Shown piece by piece: positions 16,399-38,419 of a stretch of 64,000 nt of DNA. Below the pieces are notes generated by a model. It saw only the letters and a list, made by a program, of their open reading frames with translations. It ran no database searches and had not been told where the DNA came from. The stretch comes from Anaerolineae bacterium. GTDB lineage: Bacteria > Chloroflexota > Anaerolineae > Anaerolineales > Villigracilaceae. The stretch lies in the NCBI GenBank assembly GCA_021324435.1, contig JAJPIZ010000045.1:1-64000 (forward strand), in the 5' to 3' direction. Position 1 is the stretch's first letter. Every line of letters starts with the position of its first letter. The position numbers and the translations under genes are program-made.

Positions 16399-16478
16399 TT
16401 AAACACAAAGGACACGAAGGTCACTAAGAAGAAGGCGGAATGCTCTTTCCTTTGTGCACTTTGTGCCCGTTTTGTTTA
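16399..16478. repeat. Interspersed palindromic repeat, family A, copy 2
   Basis: Left arm 16399-16428 (ttaaacacaaaggacacgaa...) and right arm 16448-16478 (...tgcccgttttgtttaa) are imperfect inverted copies. It fills the gap between jag and the pfkB start. Confidence 0.8.
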
Positions 16479-31960: not shown

Positions 31961-32689
31961 TTATTTAATCTCGTAGGTGATATTGACCGTGACGGTCAGA
32001 GTCAATTGACCGGGAGTCACAGGCACAGAGGCCGCGGCCGCCACTCCACCACCACCCTTGCCATATGTATCAACGTACGGCGTCGGGATGCTGTTGTAGA
32101 AACTGATGTTTTGCACATCGCCAAGTGAGACACTGGCCGCGGCGGCTAGTTCCTGCGCTTGAGCGGTGGCATCTTTCACGGCCGCATCGCGCGCCTGTTT
32201 GAGGGCGTCGGTCTTGTCGGCCACATCGAACTGAATGCTGTTGATGCTGTTCGCTCCGGCCTTGACCGTGGCGTCAAGCATGTCGCCGAGCTGATCCAGT
32301 TTGCGGACCTTCACGTACACGGTGTTATCTACGACATAGGTCGTGCCAATCTTCTCGCCGGTTTGCGGATCGTATTGCGTGTTCGGCCAGATGCTGAAGT
32401 TGGTGGTTTGAATATCTTTCGCATCCACGCCGGCTTTCTTCAATGCATCAACCACTTGCTGAGTCTGGGCGTTGTTCTCGGCCACGGCATCTGCGGCAGT
32501 ATCCTTTTCTGTGTGGACGCCGATGTTGATGTAAGCGATGTCGGGCGTCAGGTTAACCATGCCGGTGCCGGTCACGATCATCGTGCGCTGAGGCGGGGCG
32601 GGGTTGGCAACGAGGGTCGTCGGGCCGCAAGCGCTCAAAGCCACAGCCGCTAATACAACGATGGATAAAATAAGTGAAGTTCGTTTCAT
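31961..32689 (-). CDS. SIMPL-domain (DUF541) lipoprotein
   Basis: 242 residues. Signal peptide with lipobox VALSAC (Cys20), then a SIMPL/DUF541 domain: MIVTGTGMVNLTPDIAYINIGVHTEKDTAADAV, then VVDALKKAGVDAKDIQTTNFSIWP, ending in LTLTVTVNITYEIK. Known members are exported or lipid-anchored oligomers, such as the oxidative-stress protein YggE. AAAGGAGAT precedes the ATG. Transcribed divergently from the NurA operon. Confidence 0.88.
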   Translation of the reverse strand: MKRTSLILSIVVLAAVALSACGPTTLVANPAPPQRTMIVTGTGMVNLTPDIAYINIGVHTEKDTAADAVAENNAQTQQVVDALKKAGVDAKDIQTTNFSIWPNTQYDPQTGEKIGTTYVVDNTVYVKVRKLDQLGDMLDATVKAGANSINSIQFDVADKTDALKQARDAAVKDATAQAQELAAAASVSLGDVQNISFYNSIPTPYVDTYGKGGGGVAAAASVPVTPGQLTLTVTVNITYEIK

Positions 32690-32767
32690 GGAAATCTCCT
32701 TTGTAAGTTGTCTATTTCAAGACGAAGCGGTAAAAGAAAAGTTCCCGCAAAGAACAGCGGACTTCCC

Positions 32768-32796
32768 TTGTATTTTAGCCGATTTGACGCTACAAT
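32768..32796 (+). promoter_or_regulatory. Sigma-70 type promoter of the nurA operon
   Basis: TTGTAT (32768-32773), 17-base spacer, TACAAT (32791-32796). The expected start near 32803 leaves a leader of about 82 bases that holds a palindromic repeat ending right before the nurA ribosome-binding region. Confidence 0.65.
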
Positions 32797-32818
32797 TTTG
32801 CACAAATGTTCTAAAAGG

Positions 32819-32876
32819 GATGTGTCACTCGGAGCCGCAAAAAACGAGACCCTTCGCTTCGCTCAGAGCGACATGT
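32819..32876. repeat. Palindromic repeat in the nurA leader
   Basis: tgtcactcggagc on the left and its inverted partner gctcagagcgaca on the right, with a nested cgagaccc / cttcgcttcg segment. This is the TGTC(A/G)CTC(T/G)GAGCGAAGCGAAGGGTCTC repeat type seen in many genomes. It sits inside the predicted 5' leader. Confidence 0.6.
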
Positions 32877-32884
32877 TGAGAGAT

Positions 32885-34060
32885 ATGCCAATAAACTACC
32901 AGCAAATCTACGTTCGCATCAAAGAGATCGGCCAAGGCGCGCAGGAGCGGAAAAAGACGCTCGAGGAGAGACGGAAGAAAGCGCGCGAGCTCTTGGGCGC
33001 CTACGCGTCCGAATTGGATGCTCTACGCGCCAAAGTGGATTCCGCCAAACAGGTCGACGCGAACCTCAGATGCGCTCTTCCGGTAAGTGAGCCGCTCGCT
33101 TCATCCTACCCGCCGCCGGCCTCCGTTAAAGAAGCGACCCTGATCGCCGCGGACGGCTCGCAGATTGTTCCGAGCCGGCATGATGCAATCCAGTATTATG
33201 TAATCAATGTAGGCGCAATTGCCATGCAGATTGGTTCGGGCAATACACCAGAGGTATTTACCGAAACACAACTTCGCGTGCTTGATGAATTTGATGACAC
33301 CTTCTTCAGCGATAGCCAGATCGCGCTACAACGCGATGTCGCCGAACGAAAGAGTCTTTTAGAAATTTCCAAAAAATACTCTGGGACAATCATCTCTCTC
33401 ACTGAGGGGCAACTGGAACTTTGGGGCGCGGTTGATCCTGAAAACGCCAGAGACTTCGAGAAAAACTTGCAAGATTATCTTGATGTGTTGAAAGAGTTGG
33501 AAAAACGAAAAGCAATTACATCAGGATATGTGGATAAGCCAGGTGCAAACTGGGTAACGCGTTTGCTGGAGATAGCCACTATCTCAAAAAACGAACTGAA
33601 TAACTTGAGGAAATATCGTCCTTTGCTCGGAGTAACAGACTTATGGCTCTTTAGTCAGGTACTAGGTGAGCATGAAAGGTCTGCTATCTTTAAACTTCAG
33701 GCTAAATCGGCAGAAAAATACACCGATTCGCTTTCGATACATTTTTTCTACATAAATGTAGGCGACAAGAAAAAGCCGAAGATTGCCAGGGTTGATATTC
33801 CATTGTGGGTAGCAAGTGACAAAGTAACATTAGATAATTTGCATGGTGTATTGATTGAACAGTCCAAAATAATGGCTAACGAGCCTTTCCCCTACTTGCT
33901 ACACAGAGCTCACGAGATAGCTGTCGTGACCCATCGAGAAAAAGAAGAAATTGATCGAATGCTTACACTTGCAATTAGAAACAGTGGTGGTGAGATTGGA
34001 GAAATTTCCGGTAAACAGTCAGCTAAAAACTTGCCGGGCAAGACGAGGTACAAACCATGA
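32885..34060 (+). CDS. nurA: DNA repair nuclease NurA
   Basis: 391 residues. A basic, coiled-coil-rich N-terminus (about 10-60) precedes the NurA domain. The metal-binding aspartate of motif I is Asp90 in LIAADGSQI; motif SLTEGQLELW is at 171-180, TSGYVDKPGANW at 212-223, and the conserved FPYLLHRAHEIAVV at 335-348. NurA is a 5'-3' exonuclease/endonuclease that partners HerA in DNA end resection and, in some loci, phage defence. The start MPINYQQIYVRI is chosen because upstream codons are repeat-derived. It overlaps the next gene by four bases. Confidence 0.85.
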   Translation: MPINYQQIYVRIKEIGQGAQERKKTLEERRKKARELLGAYASELDALRAKVDSAKQVDANLRCALPVSEPLASSYPPPASVKEATLIAADGSQIVPSRHDAIQYYVINVGAIAMQIGSGNTPEVFTETQLRVLDEFDDTFFSDSQIALQRDVAERKSLLEISKKYSGTIISLTEGQLELWGAVDPENARDFEKNLQDYLDVLKELEKRKAITSGYVDKPGANWVTRLLEIATISKNELNNLRKYRPLLGVTDLWLFSQVLGEHERSAIFKLQAKSAEKYTDSLSIHFFYINVGDKKKPKIARVDIPLWVASDKVTLDNLHGVLIEQSKIMANEPFPYLLHRAHEIAVVTHREKEEIDRMLTLAIRNSGGEIGEISGKQSAKNLPGKTRYKP

Positions 34061-34662
34061 CTCAATCAATCGAAATCGGACGGTTACTGCGCGCAGGCAC
34101 AACGGGCTTCATCGCCGGATGCCGCGTCAATCAACTGAATGCGCCTGCCTTCGGCGCATTGGTACGCGCACCGCTGAGCGAAGGCTACCAGGTATATGGT
34201 TTGATTCACGACATTCACATTGATGATGACGGGCTCGTGCGTCAACTCGTCACCGCGGATAATGTCAGCGAGGAAGTGATGAAGGACAACCGCGAGCGGC
34301 GCATCGTGCCGGTGGAGATGTCCGTGTTAACGGTTGGTTATGAACAGGACGGAAAAATATATCACCTGCTTCCGCCGCGTCCGCCGCTTAGTCTGGATGT
34401 GATTTATTTATGCGATGACAAAGACTTGGTGAAATTCACAAGTGCTGGCAGATTTGGTTACTTCCGGCACATCCTGCAAAACGAGGATATTCCCATCGGC
34501 GAGGTTTTGGCGGCTCATGTTCAACAGGTGAGCAAGGCATATGGCAAGAACGCTGAACGCTGGAAGGAAGAAGCCATGCAGGAATTGATCACATTACTTA
34601 GAGATGATTATCCGACTCTGATATCCGTATTGGGGTCGCTGAGTGAAATCGCCCATGGCTAA
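34057..34662 (+). CDS. Putative stand-alone HAS-barrel protein of the NurA-HerA operon
   Basis: 201 residues. Its N-terminal ~60 residues resemble the HAS barrel at the N-terminus of the HerA encoded downstream: GYQVYGLIHDIHIDDD here against NYQFYGLVTDLQLGATD there, in the same position after a strand-turn-strand. The rest is helical (LAAHVQQVSKAYGKNAERWKEE). No catalytic motif. HAS barrels assemble rings and form interfaces in HerA and ATP synthase. Coupled to nurA by an ATGA overlap. Family otherwise unrecognised; an adaptor between NurA and HerA is inferred. Confidence 0.6.
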   Translation: MTQSIEIGRLLRAGTTGFIAGCRVNQLNAPAFGALVRAPLSEGYQVYGLIHDIHIDDDGLVRQLVTADNVSEEVMKDNRERRIVPVEMSVLTVGYEQDGKIYHLLPPRPPLSLDVIYLCDDKDLVKFTSAGRFGYFRHILQNEDIPIGEVLAAHVQQVSKAYGKNAERWKEEAMQELITLLRDDYPTLISVLGSLSEIAHG

Positions 34663-36070
34663 ACAAAAGCATTTCTGGGGTTCGCTCTCTATCCTGCTAT
34701 TTAGCATCCTCGGACTAGGAGGTCTAGCCTATCTCGGCAGTTACACACGCTTCATGGCCGACGACTATTGCTCCGCTTATTATGCCCAGCACTTCGGCCT
34801 TCTACGTTCGATTTGGTACTGGTACATCAACTGGAGCGGACGTTACACTGCCTTTGCGTTCGACTGGCTGGTGTTGGTTCAGACTCTCGGGCCCTATGGC
34901 GCGCATCTCTTCCCACCGCTGGCAATCGGGACATGGACAATAGCCAACGTGGTCGCTATTTATCTTAGCCTTAAACGCCTCTCGCTCTCCTCCTCGACTT
35001 GGAGCTTGGCCGCTATGCTAGGAACCTCTTTCACGTTGATGGCTATCGTGCTCAGCCCTGATATTGCCCAGTCCTTTTTCTGGCTGAATGGGGTGCGTTC
35101 GTATTCATTACCACTGGTCATTGCAAGCATTTGTGTCTGCCTCTTCCAGGGGATTGTCCCGCGCTTGAGACCAGAGAAAGCCGTTTGGTGGCTGTGCGCT
35201 CTTGCTATTTTACTCACCTTCTTCAACGGTGGTTTCAGCGAGACATATGCTGTAATGCAATTAATGCTACTTGCTTTTCTGGTTTGCCTGCACTGGCTAT
35301 ATGGTGGCAGGAAATCTGACGCGGTCGCGAAAATTCTTGCCTCTGCATCTCTAGGTGCGCTGGCTTCCGTGATTATCATGATCCTCGCGCCAGGCAATGC
35401 TGTTCGCCAACTGACTGCTCCACCTCCGCCAAGTCTCTTCCAGTGGATGGAAATTTCAGCTGAATCGTATCAGTCCTTTCTGCAGAACCTTTTGTTGACT
35501 CCGCAAAAGATCAGCGCAATGGCAGGTGCGTTATTGGCCAGCATATGGGCTGGAATCGGGCATGAGGGACAAATTAATTTGAAACGCTGGTCCATCCCTG
35601 TACAGGTGCTCGGTGGCATATTCCTGTCATTTATTTGCATTCTTCCTTCTGTCTATGGATATGTTGAAGCGCCGCCGCCGCGCACACTGAGCATTGCTGT
35701 CTTTGCTCTGACAGCATTATGGATGAATGCAAGTTTTCTAATTGGTGGTTGGTTGGGGAAATACGTTCGTTTTAAGTCAAAGTTGCAAACGGGGCTGCTT
35801 GTCTTAGCCAGTCTGAGCATCGCGCTAGCGTCAGTGTTGACTTTATCTTATGTGCATCAAAACCAAGACGCATATATCGCCTTTGCGCAAAAATGGGATA
35901 TCACCGATGCGCAGATCCTTCAAGCGCGTGCTCAGCATCTTCAATCTGTAACAATCCCCAGTATGGACAACTGGGCCATGGTCGAACGTCCAAGCGACAA
36001 TCAAAAGTTTTGGGCCACCAAATGTTATTCGCAATACTACGGCATCCAGGTCTTTGGTCCACCATATTGA
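34655..36070 (+). CDS. DUF6056-like polytopic membrane protein
   Basis: About 471 residues with ten or more hydrophobic segments. The N-terminal loop YTRFMADDYCSAYYAQHFG, with its acidic DDYC, is typical of DUF6056 and recalls GT-C-type glycosyltransferase or O-antigen-type membrane enzymes, in which an acidic pair in the first loop is catalytic. Function unproven. The ATG at 34655 lies inside the last codons of the HAS-barrel gene; a GTG at 34643 is the alternative. It looks AT-richer than its operon neighbours. It sits between the HAS-barrel gene and herA, an unexpected place. Confidence 0.65.
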   Translation: MAKQKHFWGSLSILLFSILGLGGLAYLGSYTRFMADDYCSAYYAQHFGLLRSIWYWYINWSGRYTAFAFDWLVLVQTLGPYGAHLFPPLAIGTWTIANVVAIYLSLKRLSLSSSTWSLAAMLGTSFTLMAIVLSPDIAQSFFWLNGVRSYSLPLVIASICVCLFQGIVPRLRPEKAVWWLCALAILLTFFNGGFSETYAVMQLMLLAFLVCLHWLYGGRKSDAVAKILASASLGALASVIIMILAPGNAVRQLTAPPPPSLFQWMEISAESYQSFLQNLLLTPQKISAMAGALLASIWAGIGHEGQINLKRWSIPVQVLGGIFLSFICILPSVYGYVEAPPPRTLSIAVFALTALWMNASFLIGGWLGKYVRFKSKLQTGLLVLASLSIALASVLTLSYVHQNQDAYIAFAQKWDITDAQILQARAQHLQSVTIPSMDNWAMVERPSDNQKFWATKCYSQYYGIQVFGPPY

Positions 36071-36091
36071 TATACAGCTATGGAGAATAGT

Positions 36092-37777
36092 ATGGTTGAA
36101 ATCAATCATCAAATCGGCTATCTCGTCGGCGGCGGGCTGAAGGAATCGTTCAACGTGCGGCTGACAGTTGATCCGCTCACGGTGCAGGAGGGCGCGTTCG
36201 TGGTCATCGAGAGCGGAAATTACCAGTTCTACGGCCTCGTCACGGACCTGCAACTCGGCGCGACGGATCCGCGTTTTGCGGACGAGCAATCGGAAACACG
36301 TCTGCCGCCCGCGCTGGCGAAGGCTTTGCACGGACAGACGCTGTACACCAATCTCGAAGTCCTGCCCGCGTTGATGTTGGAGCGCGGACCGGAGCCGGGC
36401 TCGCGTGAATATGATCAGTGGTTGAAAAACTTAAATGGTCAGCAGCCGCGGCCGGGTCCGGTAAAGACCGTGCCGCCGCATCATGCCGCGGTGCGCATGG
36501 CAGGCGAAGGCGACATCGCCGAGATCTTCGGCAAGGCGGGCGAGGGCGGCAACTTCGTCATCGGTAAAACTCGCGAACAAGGACATCCGGTTTGTATTGA
36601 TTTGGAAAAGTTCGTCCAACGATCATCGGGAATTTTCGGCGCGACCGGAACGGGCAAATCGTTTTTGACGCGCGTCGTGCTGGCCGGGTTGATGCACTAC
36701 AACAAGGCGTCGGTGCTGGTGTTCGACATGCACAACGAATATGGGTACGACGACACGGCCTCCGACACGGGCCTGCGCGTGACGGGCTTGAAGACCAAGT
36801 TTGCCTCGAAGGTGCGCGTGGTGGGACTGGGCCCCGGCGCGAAAATCCGCGGCTCGGCCCCGGACTTCAACCTTGAGATCGCGGAAAGTGACATTACTAC
36901 ATCTGACATCGAACTGCTGACGCGCGAACTCGATTTGAAAGAGACGACTGCCACGACGCTCGACGCGTTGTGGAACTCGTTCAAGCGTGATTGGTTCAGC
37001 GAATTCAAGAACATGACTCAGGAACAAATCACGACCGAGGAGGGCAAGCGAGTCCCGGCGAATGGAAGTGTGGCCGCATGGGCCAACGCCAATGGCGTCA
37101 ACATAATGGCTGCCGAGGCTTTGCACAACAAACTGCGGCGGCTGTTCAACAAGGAATACATCGTCGCCAAGCCCGCCGCGGACTCAATCAAGGAAATCAT
37201 CAGCGCCCTCGAGAACGGACAGCATATCGTGCTCTCGTTCGGCGAATTCGAGACCGACCTGGATTATCTGCTGGTTTCCAATTTGCTGACGCGGCGTATC
37301 CGCGAAGCCTGGGAGAAGAAGACCAACGCGTTTAGAACATCGGGCAAAGAGGAGCCGCGCCAACTGGTGATCGTGATCGAGGAGGCACACAAACTGTTGA
37401 ACCGCGAGATGGCCGCGCAGACCACCTTCGCCACCATCGCGCGAGAGTTACGCAAATATTACGTGACCCTGCTGGTCATTGACCAGCGCCCGTCGCAAAT
37501 CTATGATGAGGTCATGTCGCAACTCGGCACGCGCATCTCCGGCTGGCTGGGTGACGAAGATGACATCCATGCCGTGCTTTCGGGGCTGGCAGGCCGCGAG
37601 GCTCTGCGCGGCATGTTGGCACGCCTGCAACCCAAGGAAGAAGTATTGCTGTTGGGCTGGGGCGTGCCGATGCCACTGCCGGTTAAGTCGCGCAGGTATG
37701 ACGATGAGTTCTGGAAGGACTTGCTTGGAGCGGGGAAGAGGAGCAAAGAACAGAACTTGAAGGAGTTGGGATTTTGA
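36092..37777 (+). CDS. herA: HerA-type DNA translocase/helicase
   Basis: About 561 residues. N-terminal HAS barrel (about 5-60), then a FtsK/HerA-like ATPase core with Walker A GATGTGKS (183-190), VLVFDMHNEYGYD just after, Walker B LVIVIEEAHKLL, and the terminal DQRPSQIYDEVMSQLGTRISGWLGDEDD sensor/arginine-finger region. Hexameric HerA pumps DNA into NurA for resection. The ATG at 36092 has TGGAGAA at good spacing; an ATG at 36080 is less suited. Same operon as nurA, 21 bases after the DUF6056-like gene. Confidence 0.9.
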   Translation: MVEINHQIGYLVGGGLKESFNVRLTVDPLTVQEGAFVVIESGNYQFYGLVTDLQLGATDPRFADEQSETRLPPALAKALHGQTLYTNLEVLPALMLERGPEPGSREYDQWLKNLNGQQPRPGPVKTVPPHHAAVRMAGEGDIAEIFGKAGEGGNFVIGKTREQGHPVCIDLEKFVQRSSGIFGATGTGKSFLTRVVLAGLMHYNKASVLVFDMHNEYGYDDTASDTGLRVTGLKTKFASKVRVVGLGPGAKIRGSAPDFNLEIAESDITTSDIELLTRELDLKETTATTLDALWNSFKRDWFSEFKNMTQEQITTEEGKRVPANGSVAAWANANGVNIMAAEALHNKLRRLFNKEYIVAKPAADSIKEIISALENGQHIVLSFGEFETDLDYLLVSNLLTRRIREAWEKKTNAFRTSGKEEPRQLVIVIEEAHKLLNREMAAQTTFATIARELRKYYVTLLVIDQRPSQIYDEVMSQLGTRISGWLGDEDDIHAVLSGLAGREALRGMLARLQPKEEVLLLGWGVPMPLPVKSRRYDDEFWKDLLGAGKRSKEQNLKELGF

Positions 37778-37913
37778 AATGAATGGGATATTTAAGTGAT
37801 TCGTAAAATCTGTTACCCCGCGGCGCTAAAGCACGAGCGCGAGGTGAAGTTCTTCAAGCGCCGGTAAAGACCTCACCCCGCTCACTTGGAAGAGCACCAG
37901 GTACAAGTTGCGG

Positions 37914-37943
37914 CCCTCTCCTTTTCGGAGAGGGTTTTGTTTT
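37914..37943 (+). terminator. Rho-independent terminator after herA
   Basis: Eight-base perfect stem ccctctcc/ggagaggg, loop ttttc, tail ttttgtttt. The stem appears to derive from the same repeat family as that at 31.86 kb (cctcaccccgctcact lies just upstream). The gap 37778-37981 otherwise holds nothing gene-like. Confidence 0.75.
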
Positions 37944-37981
37944 GAAAATCAAGTATCATCCATAAAAACGAAAGGAAACTC

Positions 37982-38419
37982 ATGGAATCCATTCTGCTCA
38001 TCATTTTGATTGGTCTCGCGGGCGGTGTGGCGGTGGGGTTGCAAAGTCCGCTGGCGAGCATGATTAGTCAGCGGCTGGGAACGTTGGAGAGTGTGTTCAT
38101 CGTCCACATCGGCGGAGCAATCGTGGCCTTGATTCCGCTTTTGATGTATGGCGGCGGGAAACTGGGCCAATGGCGGAATGTCCCGTGGTACGCGCTGGGC
38201 GCGGGCGTGTTCGGTCTGATTGTGATCGGCGCGATCAGTTACATGATTCCGCGCGTCGGCGTTGCCGCTTCCATCACGACCATCGTGGCGGGGCAGTTGT
38301 TGGTTGGCACGCTTCTTGATCACTTCGGTTTGTTGGGCGCGGCTGAAAGATTGTTGGACCCGACACGCGTCATTGGCTTGATTGTGGTGCTGGTCGGCGT
38401 ATGGCTGACGGTGAAATAA
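37982..38419 (+). CDS. DMT-family transporter, YdcZ/DUF606 type
   Basis: 145 residues, five hydrophobic segments: LLIILIGLAGGVAVGLQSPL, FIVHIGGAIVALIPLL, the GAISYMIPRVGVAASIT stretch and VIGLIVVLVGVWLTVK at the end. This is the half-size DUF606 (YdcZ) family, single-repeat relatives of DMT transporters that act as dimers. Substrate unknown. AAAGGAA precedes the ATG. Confidence 0.88.
   Translation: MESILLIILIGLAGGVAVGLQSPLASMISQRLGTLESVFIVHIGGAIVALIPLLMYGGGKLGQWRNVPWYALGAGVFGLIVIGAISYMIPRVGVAASITTIVAGQLLVGTLLDHFGLLGAAERLLDPTRVIGLIVVLVGVWLTVK

Follow-up and report, generated by a model that had tools for sequence, protein, structure and literature searches.

HerA forms a hexameric ring that pumps double-stranded DNA, and NurA is a dimer that cuts the DNA fed to it. 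The two have been studied as a two-protein machine, and whether this machine serves end resection or the destruction of invading DNA is disputed; a 2026 paper argues that resection may not be the task of the Thermococcus complex (PMC12977600). In a 64,000-nucleotide (nt) stretch of DNA from an Anaerolineae bacterium of the family Villigracilaceae (hereafter the window; contig C39, from a draft genome that measures 3.1 Mb and is 97% complete), nurA and herA stand in a row with two further genes, which raises the question of which of these genes belong to the machine. The original prediction, made from the letters of the window, had joined all four into one larger complex, possibly tethered to the membrane. 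We consider a different reading probable, in which nurA, the second gene and herA form a three-gene operon that carries a passenger, the product of the second gene (201 residues, here labelled P2) would be a partner at the NurA-HerA junction, and the nuclease domain of NurA would have been exchanged by recombination. What appears new here is a conserved, predicted HAS-barrel partner of NurA-HerA together with an apparently repeated exchange of the NurA nuclease domain; the DUF6056 gene is ordinary.

The four genes follow one another on the plus strand, as had been predicted (PF09376, P2, PF19528 and DUF87 genes in succession), and the locus reads as follows:

32885-34060, plus strand: nurA, encoding a NurA-family nuclease, putative mosaic gene (PF09376, E 5e-15, above cut-off; AlphaFold model; start taken from the alignment of relatives)
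32885-33157, plus strand: predicted resident part of nurA, comprising the helical N-terminal module plus the first strand and reaching approximately to the ADGSQ motif (nearest to locus L032; G+C content at third codon positions, GC3, 0.70)
33158-34060, plus strand: predicted exchanged part of nurA, type A nuclease domain (77-78% identity to type A genes of other genera; GC3 0.42)
34057-34662, plus strand: P2, the operon's conserved third gene, predicted to encode a stand-alone HAS-barrel protein (conservation, predicted structure, fold search)
34655-36070, plus strand: gene for a DUF6056 multi-pass membrane protein, probable passenger (PF19528, E 1e-19, 70.9 bits against a cut-off of 27)
36080-37777, plus strand: herA, HerA/FtsK-type DNA translocase with its own HAS-barrel and a DUF87 core (DUF87 E 6e-31, 108.8 bits, above cut-off)
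37912-37936, plus strand: terminator-like hairpin 3' of herA (10 pairs, then a T-rich tail; consensus match only)

The couplings between the first three genes were found as described: the nurA stop and the P2 start share positions 34057-34060 (ATGA), and the DUF6056 frame, read from ATG 34655, overlaps the end of P2 by 8 nt.

Conservation was followed in three samples. The family loci comprise the surroundings of P2 from 80 genomes of the same family, 80 public contigs (the best 80 of 164) and the window, 161 in all; removal of 44 copies (exact 200-nt match inside P2) left 117 distinct loci, and the P2-herA interval could be measured in 96 loci, the window included. The phylum sample holds 251 Chloroflexota genomes (completeness filter 85%), in which a HerA match required E 1e-30 or better, and the distant sample holds 60 P2 loci or stretches from distant Chloroflexota. 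P2 is present in 83 of 100 family genomes (full-length matches 52-86% identical) and in 84 of the 251 Chloroflexota genomes, of which 97 have HerA matches and 154 NurA matches. All 84 genomes with P2 carry this HerA and 83 carry NurA, which agrees with the earlier proposal of the small HAS-barrel-like gene as a partner and shows the gene to be conserved. Thirteen HerA genomes had initially been scored as lacking P2; a wider profile, applied to stretches fetched around herA or nurA, recovered it in 10 of them. In the same-genus genome G042 (98% complete), P2, NurA and HerA are all absent from the matches.

Gene order is conserved as well. The row nurA-P2-herA stands on one strand in 90 of the 117 distinct family loci, the nuclease and the translocase being both linked and co-occurring; the remaining 27 comprise 21 loci without herA downstream (the sequence still available amounts to less than 2 kb in 10 of them and to 2.5-7.4 kb in 11) and 7 without nurA upstream, one locus lacking both. 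At L093, herA lies upstream on the other strand, and in the same-genus genome G004 a herA (84%) was seen at L299 on contig C4, with nurA and P2 on another contig. The nurA-P2 interval exceeds 250 nt in 22 of 110 family loci; the P2-herA interval measures at most 250 nt in 34 of the 96 loci, 250-1000 nt in 32 and more in 30. At the 60 distant loci, nurA lies within 2 kb upstream of P2 in 44 and herA within 300 nt downstream in 34, three more having herA further downstream (at 406, 951 and 1807 nt). With the genes so tightly ordered in distant families, the interruption between P2 and herA in the window's family would seem to have arisen later. P2 thus co-occurs with nurA and herA and keeps its place between them, which bears out the expectation of more than a two-gene repair pair; the core of the locus is three genes, nurA-P2-herA.

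What kind of protein P2 may be was approached through its predicted structure. The AlphaFold model (predicted local distance difference test, pLDDT, 83.7; predicted template modelling score, pTM, 0.80) consists of a beta-barrel and a helical C-terminal part, which is conserved besides the barrel. In the structural comparison the top 24 rows are HerA-family chains (Z 12.9-10.7, root-mean-square deviation 2.4-4.7 over 99-139 residues), followed by F1-ATPase barrels at Z 10.4 and less. As modelled, P2 is a HAS-barrel on its own, of the fold by which HerA docks NurA; this kinship rests on the predicted fold because the comparison of sequence profiles between P2 and HerA's own barrel is weak (probability 55, E 1e-4). 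The HAS-barrel likeness noted earlier holds for the predicted fold and for L239, a Chloroflexota relative distant from window P2 that scores 40.1 bits against the Pfam HAS-barrel (PF09378), above the cut-off of 25.2; in the sequence of window P2, which stays below that cut-off (E 0.014, 15.9 bits), it is weak; another relative, L282, has no HAS-barrel Pfam match. Window P2 had no match in 50,697 phage records or 72,556 plasmid records, and none of the 8 pattern matches from a scan of viral contigs was confirmed. In the titles and abstract openings of the literature searched no separate HAS-barrel protein with NurA-HerA was found, and the early papers in which HerA and the HAS-barrel were defined may mention the middle gene; P2 is most likely an undescribed partner of NurA-HerA.

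Genes in the same position occur beyond this class of HerA. Two Chloroflexota genomes with another NurA-HerA class (G238 and G216; loci L300 and L297) carry, between nurA and herA, a gene whose product has about 200 residues, and relatives of the G238 gene (query L300) were found on four haloarchaeal plasmids. Three of these (L302, L303, L305) show, in this order, a metallophosphoesterase, an SMC-family ATPase, nurA, a 'hypothetical protein' and a HerA-type ATPase, and the record of the fourth ends before the position of nurA. In G175 (L301, another NurA class) NurA is present, and neither HerA nor a middle gene was found in the stretch. Two single remote homologues gave probabilities of 67 and 53 against the P2 profile, and a six-protein profile of the remote homologues reached 95.8 (E 7.5e-9, 169 columns), compared with a maximum of 1.1 in 19 controls (12 unrelated alignments, 2 reversed P2 and 5 column-shuffled P2). 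Their match to HerA's barrel was weaker than that of P2 (probability 4.1), and the five of the six that were scanned (L300, L297, L302-L304) had no match to the Pfam HAS-barrel. Judged by sequence profiles, the match to P2 and the plasmid loci together indicate that a homologous middle gene reaches beyond Chloroflexota.

The other part of our reading concerns nurA itself. Its GC3 is 0.70 in codons 32873 to 33169 and 0.42 in the rest, other measured genes of the window lying at 0.54-0.74. Residues 1-100 of window NurA are nearest to same-genus L032 (85% identity); residues 101-395 are nearest to other genera (L060 78%, L047 and L040 77%), and against L032 this nuclease part is 42-58% identical per 50-residue window. 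The nuclease domain of the window's type, type A, was found in 19 of 102 full-length nurA genes. Comparable steps separate other pairs, in which identity is 95-100% over the first 80 residues and then 15-70% (L060 and L057), 85-100% and then 30-65% (L177 and L166), or 75-95% and then 30-75% (L047 and L111). The ADGSQ motif, with which the NurA domain begins, is close to the step, and the place of the step is similar in these separate pairs; the border between resident and exchanged parts is approximate because the step was read in 20-residue windows. Across the junction, GC3 drops by at least 0.15 in 6 of the 19 type A genes versus 1 of the 83 others.

Trees were built for the 50 loci with full HerA, P2 and NurA, 52 of the 102 typed loci being unusable and 8 of the 19 type A genes kept. 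In the nuclease-domain tree, type A forms one clade with support 100. On the P2 + HerA tree and on the tree of the N-terminal module (N-module), type A needs 6 changes, at least 5 of them forced by well-supported branches, and type A as one clade on P2 + HerA was rejected (approximately unbiased test, p-AU 3.4e-6). These comparisons indicate that nurA is a recombinant, in which residues 1-95 follow P2 and HerA and the nuclease domain is of a divergent type. The AlphaFold model of NurA (pLDDT 89.8) finds its best fits among NurA structures (Z 20.8 with a chain of 9x1m, the Thermococcus kodakarensis HerA-NurA complex, and 20.7 with Sulfolobus NurA, 2ygk), and D94-G-S, D155, E158, D256 and H290 (numbered from ATG 32873), which we take to be the catalytic residues, are conserved in both NurA types; because these positions are kept and the model fits in this way, both types look active. 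No description of a NurA domain exchange was found in the titles and abstract openings of the literature searched.

The third gene of the row behaves otherwise. A DUF6056 gene stands between P2 and herA in five of the 96 family loci (the window, L032, L034, L069 and L180), and a profile of these five copies found none in the 60 distant stretches. A Pfam search gave DUF6056 matches in 59 of 100 family genomes, an undercount because it missed the operon copies at L032, L034 and L069, and among the places listed only the window's match lies at a nurA-herA locus. In the 96 loci the interval also holds PF13366 PD-(D/E)XK genes (at least 26), N6/N4 methyltransferases (10), 23S rRNA intervening-sequence proteins (7), GT87 membrane proteins (6), metallophosphoesterases (4) and uracil-DNA-glycosylase-like proteins (3), named by a Pfam scan of one representative per group. 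The count keeps the longest of overlapping frames and misses some genes, so that the PF13366 figure is a lower bound; G041 (L084) and G018 (L081) have PF13366 interval matches outside the 26. On the P2 + HerA tree, 9 changes are needed for the PF13366 gene (10 of 50 loci), 12 for an insert of more than 250 nt (29 of 50) and 2 for DUF6056 (3 of 50); with so many changes needed, insertion or loss in the P2-herA interval recurs. PF13366 matches number 72 in 18 selected family genomes, some of them fragments, and since this is about four per genome, random placement would put them at one interval far less often than in the 26 of 96 loci counted. The interval is an insertion hotspot, and the DUF6056 gene is a probable passenger. 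The original prediction would have called it one if the other three genes occurred elsewhere without it and DUF6056 were present only here; the trio does so occur, and DUF6056 is not confined to this locus.

Several further observations were made on the inserts. Kinship of DUF6056 to the GT87 insert was considered and dropped, the five-row and six-row profiles giving no match (probability 0.3), and we therefore do not claim the DUF6056 protein as a glycosyltransferase. Nor was an association of the NurA type with the insert found (Fisher p between 0.34 and 1 across six insert families, 0.36 when all inserts are pooled). At L040, L044, L120 and other loci, the PF13366 (GxxExxY) genes of the interval are flanked by inverted repeats like AACCACRAAGGRCACRAAGG; of 28 such genes, 22 have at least 2 copies of a short motif in one orientation within 160 nt upstream and 21 have them in the opposite orientation downstream, and 7 of the 34 tight P2-herA intervals have at least 2 motif copies and no PF13366 gene. 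The PF13366 gene with its inverted repeats looks like a small mobile element. In the window the AACCACRAAGGRCACRAAGG repeat occurs, with at most 3 mismatches, at 16401, 43342, 43351, 50765, 56346 and 56390 (shuffles, mean 0.03). In the intervals of L094, L098, L102 and L103 a DNA methyltransferase is accompanied by at least one of three genes: one resembling Dam (named by eye), one resembling uracil-DNA glycosylase, and one that has no Pfam match and could encode a restriction enzyme. Finally, a family of about 241 residues, whose representative has no Pfam match, lies between nurA and P2 in L044, L045, L082, L143 and L166.

Some details of the gene calls changed on closer comparison. The nurA open frame opens at TTG 32708, and most aligned relatives start at or near MPINYQQ, which corresponds to ATG 32885; from this alignment ATG 32885 is most likely the start, and the position first given, 32768, was not borne out. 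For the DUF6056 gene, GTG 34643 is an alternative start. The 21-nt spacing ahead of herA holds if the second ATG (36092) is used; with ATG 36080 the gene begins 9 nt past the DUF6056 stop. The HAS-barrel of herA scores E 4e-4 and 21.0 bits, below the Pfam cut-off of 25.2, and solved HerA relatives were found for window HerA. A single promoter for the row did not emerge: positions 32600-38000 contain 3 promoter-like sites, where shuffles average 4.5, and nurA has none of them upstream, although a promoter may still lie there. Terminator-like sites in the region number 7 versus 5.5 in shuffles. Just upstream of nurA, at 32852-32866, the window contains CTTCGCTTCGCTCAG (1 match in the window, 0 in shuffles), which resembles a repeat from related genomes and may be the source of the extra open frame preceding nurA.

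How the three core proteins might work together can be sketched from these data. In this family of machines, HerA pumps DNA via its barrel ring to the NurA dimer. Most likely, P2 would have its place at or near the junction of the two, where it would help assembly or act as a gate, with a closer tie to NurA than to HerA. NurA would consist of an adaptor and a cassette, the helical N-module staying with P2 and HerA, whereas the nuclease domain would have been passed among lineages through recombination close to the conserved DGS motif. If the catalytic domain was replaced repeatedly, this would suggest selection on it. In Deinococcus, NurA is bound by the HAS-barrels of HerA and touches HerA with four loops (PMC9960219), and the extended N-terminal region of the Deinococcus NurA is involved in dimerisation and control (PMC12977600).

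Several observations tell against this reading, and some of them favour rival explanations. That all four proteins form one complex, perhaps membrane-tethered with the DUF6056 protein as anchor, is very improbable in our judgement. The genes share a strand with short overlaps and gaps, two of the five interval copies of DUF6056 lie outside the genus (L069 33%, L180 42%), and L084 has, on the opposite strand and some 1.1 kb upstream of nurA, a frame that resembles DUF6056 (27%). However, DUF6056 is missing from the interval in 91 of the 96 family loci and was not seen in the 60 distant stretches, the interval hosts many unrelated genes, and between the window and L032 the DUF6056 proteins are 61% identical versus 93% for HerA and 86% for P2, so that the membrane gene as fourth partner was abandoned. 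Misassembly or an uneven evolutionary rate as the cause of the nurA mosaic is likewise improbable. Most of the sequences are metagenome assemblies and many genomes are in pieces; the trees come from short searches with long-branch warnings and include only about half of the typed loci (fewer than half of type A), the N-module tree has 89 columns and is poorly resolved, and type A genes are somewhat closer to each other in the N-module too (0.653 versus 0.538). An artefact is nevertheless difficult to reconcile with a step at a similar place in four pairs (the window and L032 among them), with a GC3 drop found mainly in type A genes, or with the rejection of a single type A clade.

A stronger rival, although still an unlikely one, holds that P2 is a regulator or assembly factor of NurA, whose barrel would copy the docking surface of HerA and keep NurA idle until HerA replaces it. 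Such a role would suit the binding of NurA by HerA HAS-barrels reported in PMC9960219, the tighter linkage of nurA to P2 than of P2 to herA (more than 250 nt in 22 of 110 versus 62 of 96 loci) and the frequent persistence of the nurA-P2 linkage where herA lies elsewhere; it suits less well the conserved helical C-terminal part and a co-occurrence with this HerA that is at least as strict as that with NurA. P2 as a junction partner of both enzymes therefore remains our preferred reading, with the following points to be set on the other side. Three HerA genomes without P2 were found, G117, G194 and G312; in G117 and G312 NurA was not found either, and the G194 contig stops at herA, its nurA being on another contig whose surroundings were not searched for P2. 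A NurA domain occurs without this HerA or P2 in 60 of the 251 genomes. The 11 family loci with 2.5-7.4 kb beyond P2 show no herA on that strand, and herA is not in the stretch beside P2 in 23 of the 60 distant loci; all 23 genomes were searched and HerA was found elsewhere in each, the G222 copy being in pieces with stop codons. The four-loop contacts of Deinococcus probably fall in the exchanged part, in which case an exchanged domain must still fit HerA, and phage inhibitors as the driver of exchange are a guess.

Comparison with known systems places the locus among relatives without matching any of them fully. Deinococcus radiodurans NurA-HerA has the same two enzymes in an end resection complex, and chains from its structures turn up in the fold comparisons, with the NurA model (7f6d, Z 13.8) and with P2 (7wrx 11.5, 7wrw 11.4 and 7f6d 11.3), but the cited part of PMC9960219 describes a 6:2 two-protein complex with no separate HAS-barrel protein. 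The archaeal Mre11-Rad50-HerA-NurA system (Sulfolobus, Thermococcus) shares the NurA fold, as the fits to 9x1m and 2ygk indicate, and the haloarchaeal plasmid rows with a metallophosphoesterase and an SMC-family ATPase resemble its operon; however, the sources cited, seen in part, mention no middle HAS-barrel gene in the thermophilic archaeal operon, and the window has no mre11-rad50 among its annotated neighbours. Chains of the TdpAB complex match P2 (8wfd_D, Z 11.1) and the NurA model (8wfd_G, Z 17.3), TdpA being HerA-like and TdpB NurA-like; NurA structures nevertheless fit the NurA model better, and we know of no third HAS-barrel gene in TdpAB. HerA anti-phage systems (SIR2 or DUF4297) combine a HerA hexamer with a nuclease or NADase partner, and chains of their HerA proteins rank with the best in the fold comparison of P2, but the partner in the window is NurA. 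Window HerA was rejected as an anti-phage HerA, staying below the NCBIfam cut-offs (71.6 versus 800 and 60.3 versus 850 bits). In PADLOC (2023), NurA, P2 and the DUF6056 protein had no match, and HerA matched 17 models, mostly HerA and also mad8, DndH and a type II restriction enzyme. AddAB was considered as another resection machine: AddA passed its cut-off in none of 15 genomes, AddA-sized frames in G004 and G008 (1215 and 1145 residues) matched weakly, and no argument is built on this. Thermus nurA-hepA is a bacterial NurA-HerA gene pair like that of the window; it differs in that, according to the cited part of PMC5448004, strains whose nurA is complete have its stop overlapping the start of hepA, with no middle gene, and P2 is thus not needed by every HerA-NurA.

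A bolder version of our reading, possible yet doubtful, would make P2 an obligate third subunit of a large HerA-NurA branch, found in Chloroflexota and on haloarchaeal plasmids, whose machine would be immune as much as repair; lineages would replace the nuclease cassette time after time, at a junction close to the active-site motif, and thereby evade inhibitors from phages or plasmids, with the docking module, P2 and HerA remaining in place. With a HAS-barrel gene conserved between nurA and herA, two-protein reconstitutions of this branch may lack a part. Repeated exchange of the nuclease domain alone would moreover offer a testable handle on the dispute between end resection and destruction of invading DNA, as a purely housekeeping enzyme would not be expected to lose its catalytic half several times within a family.

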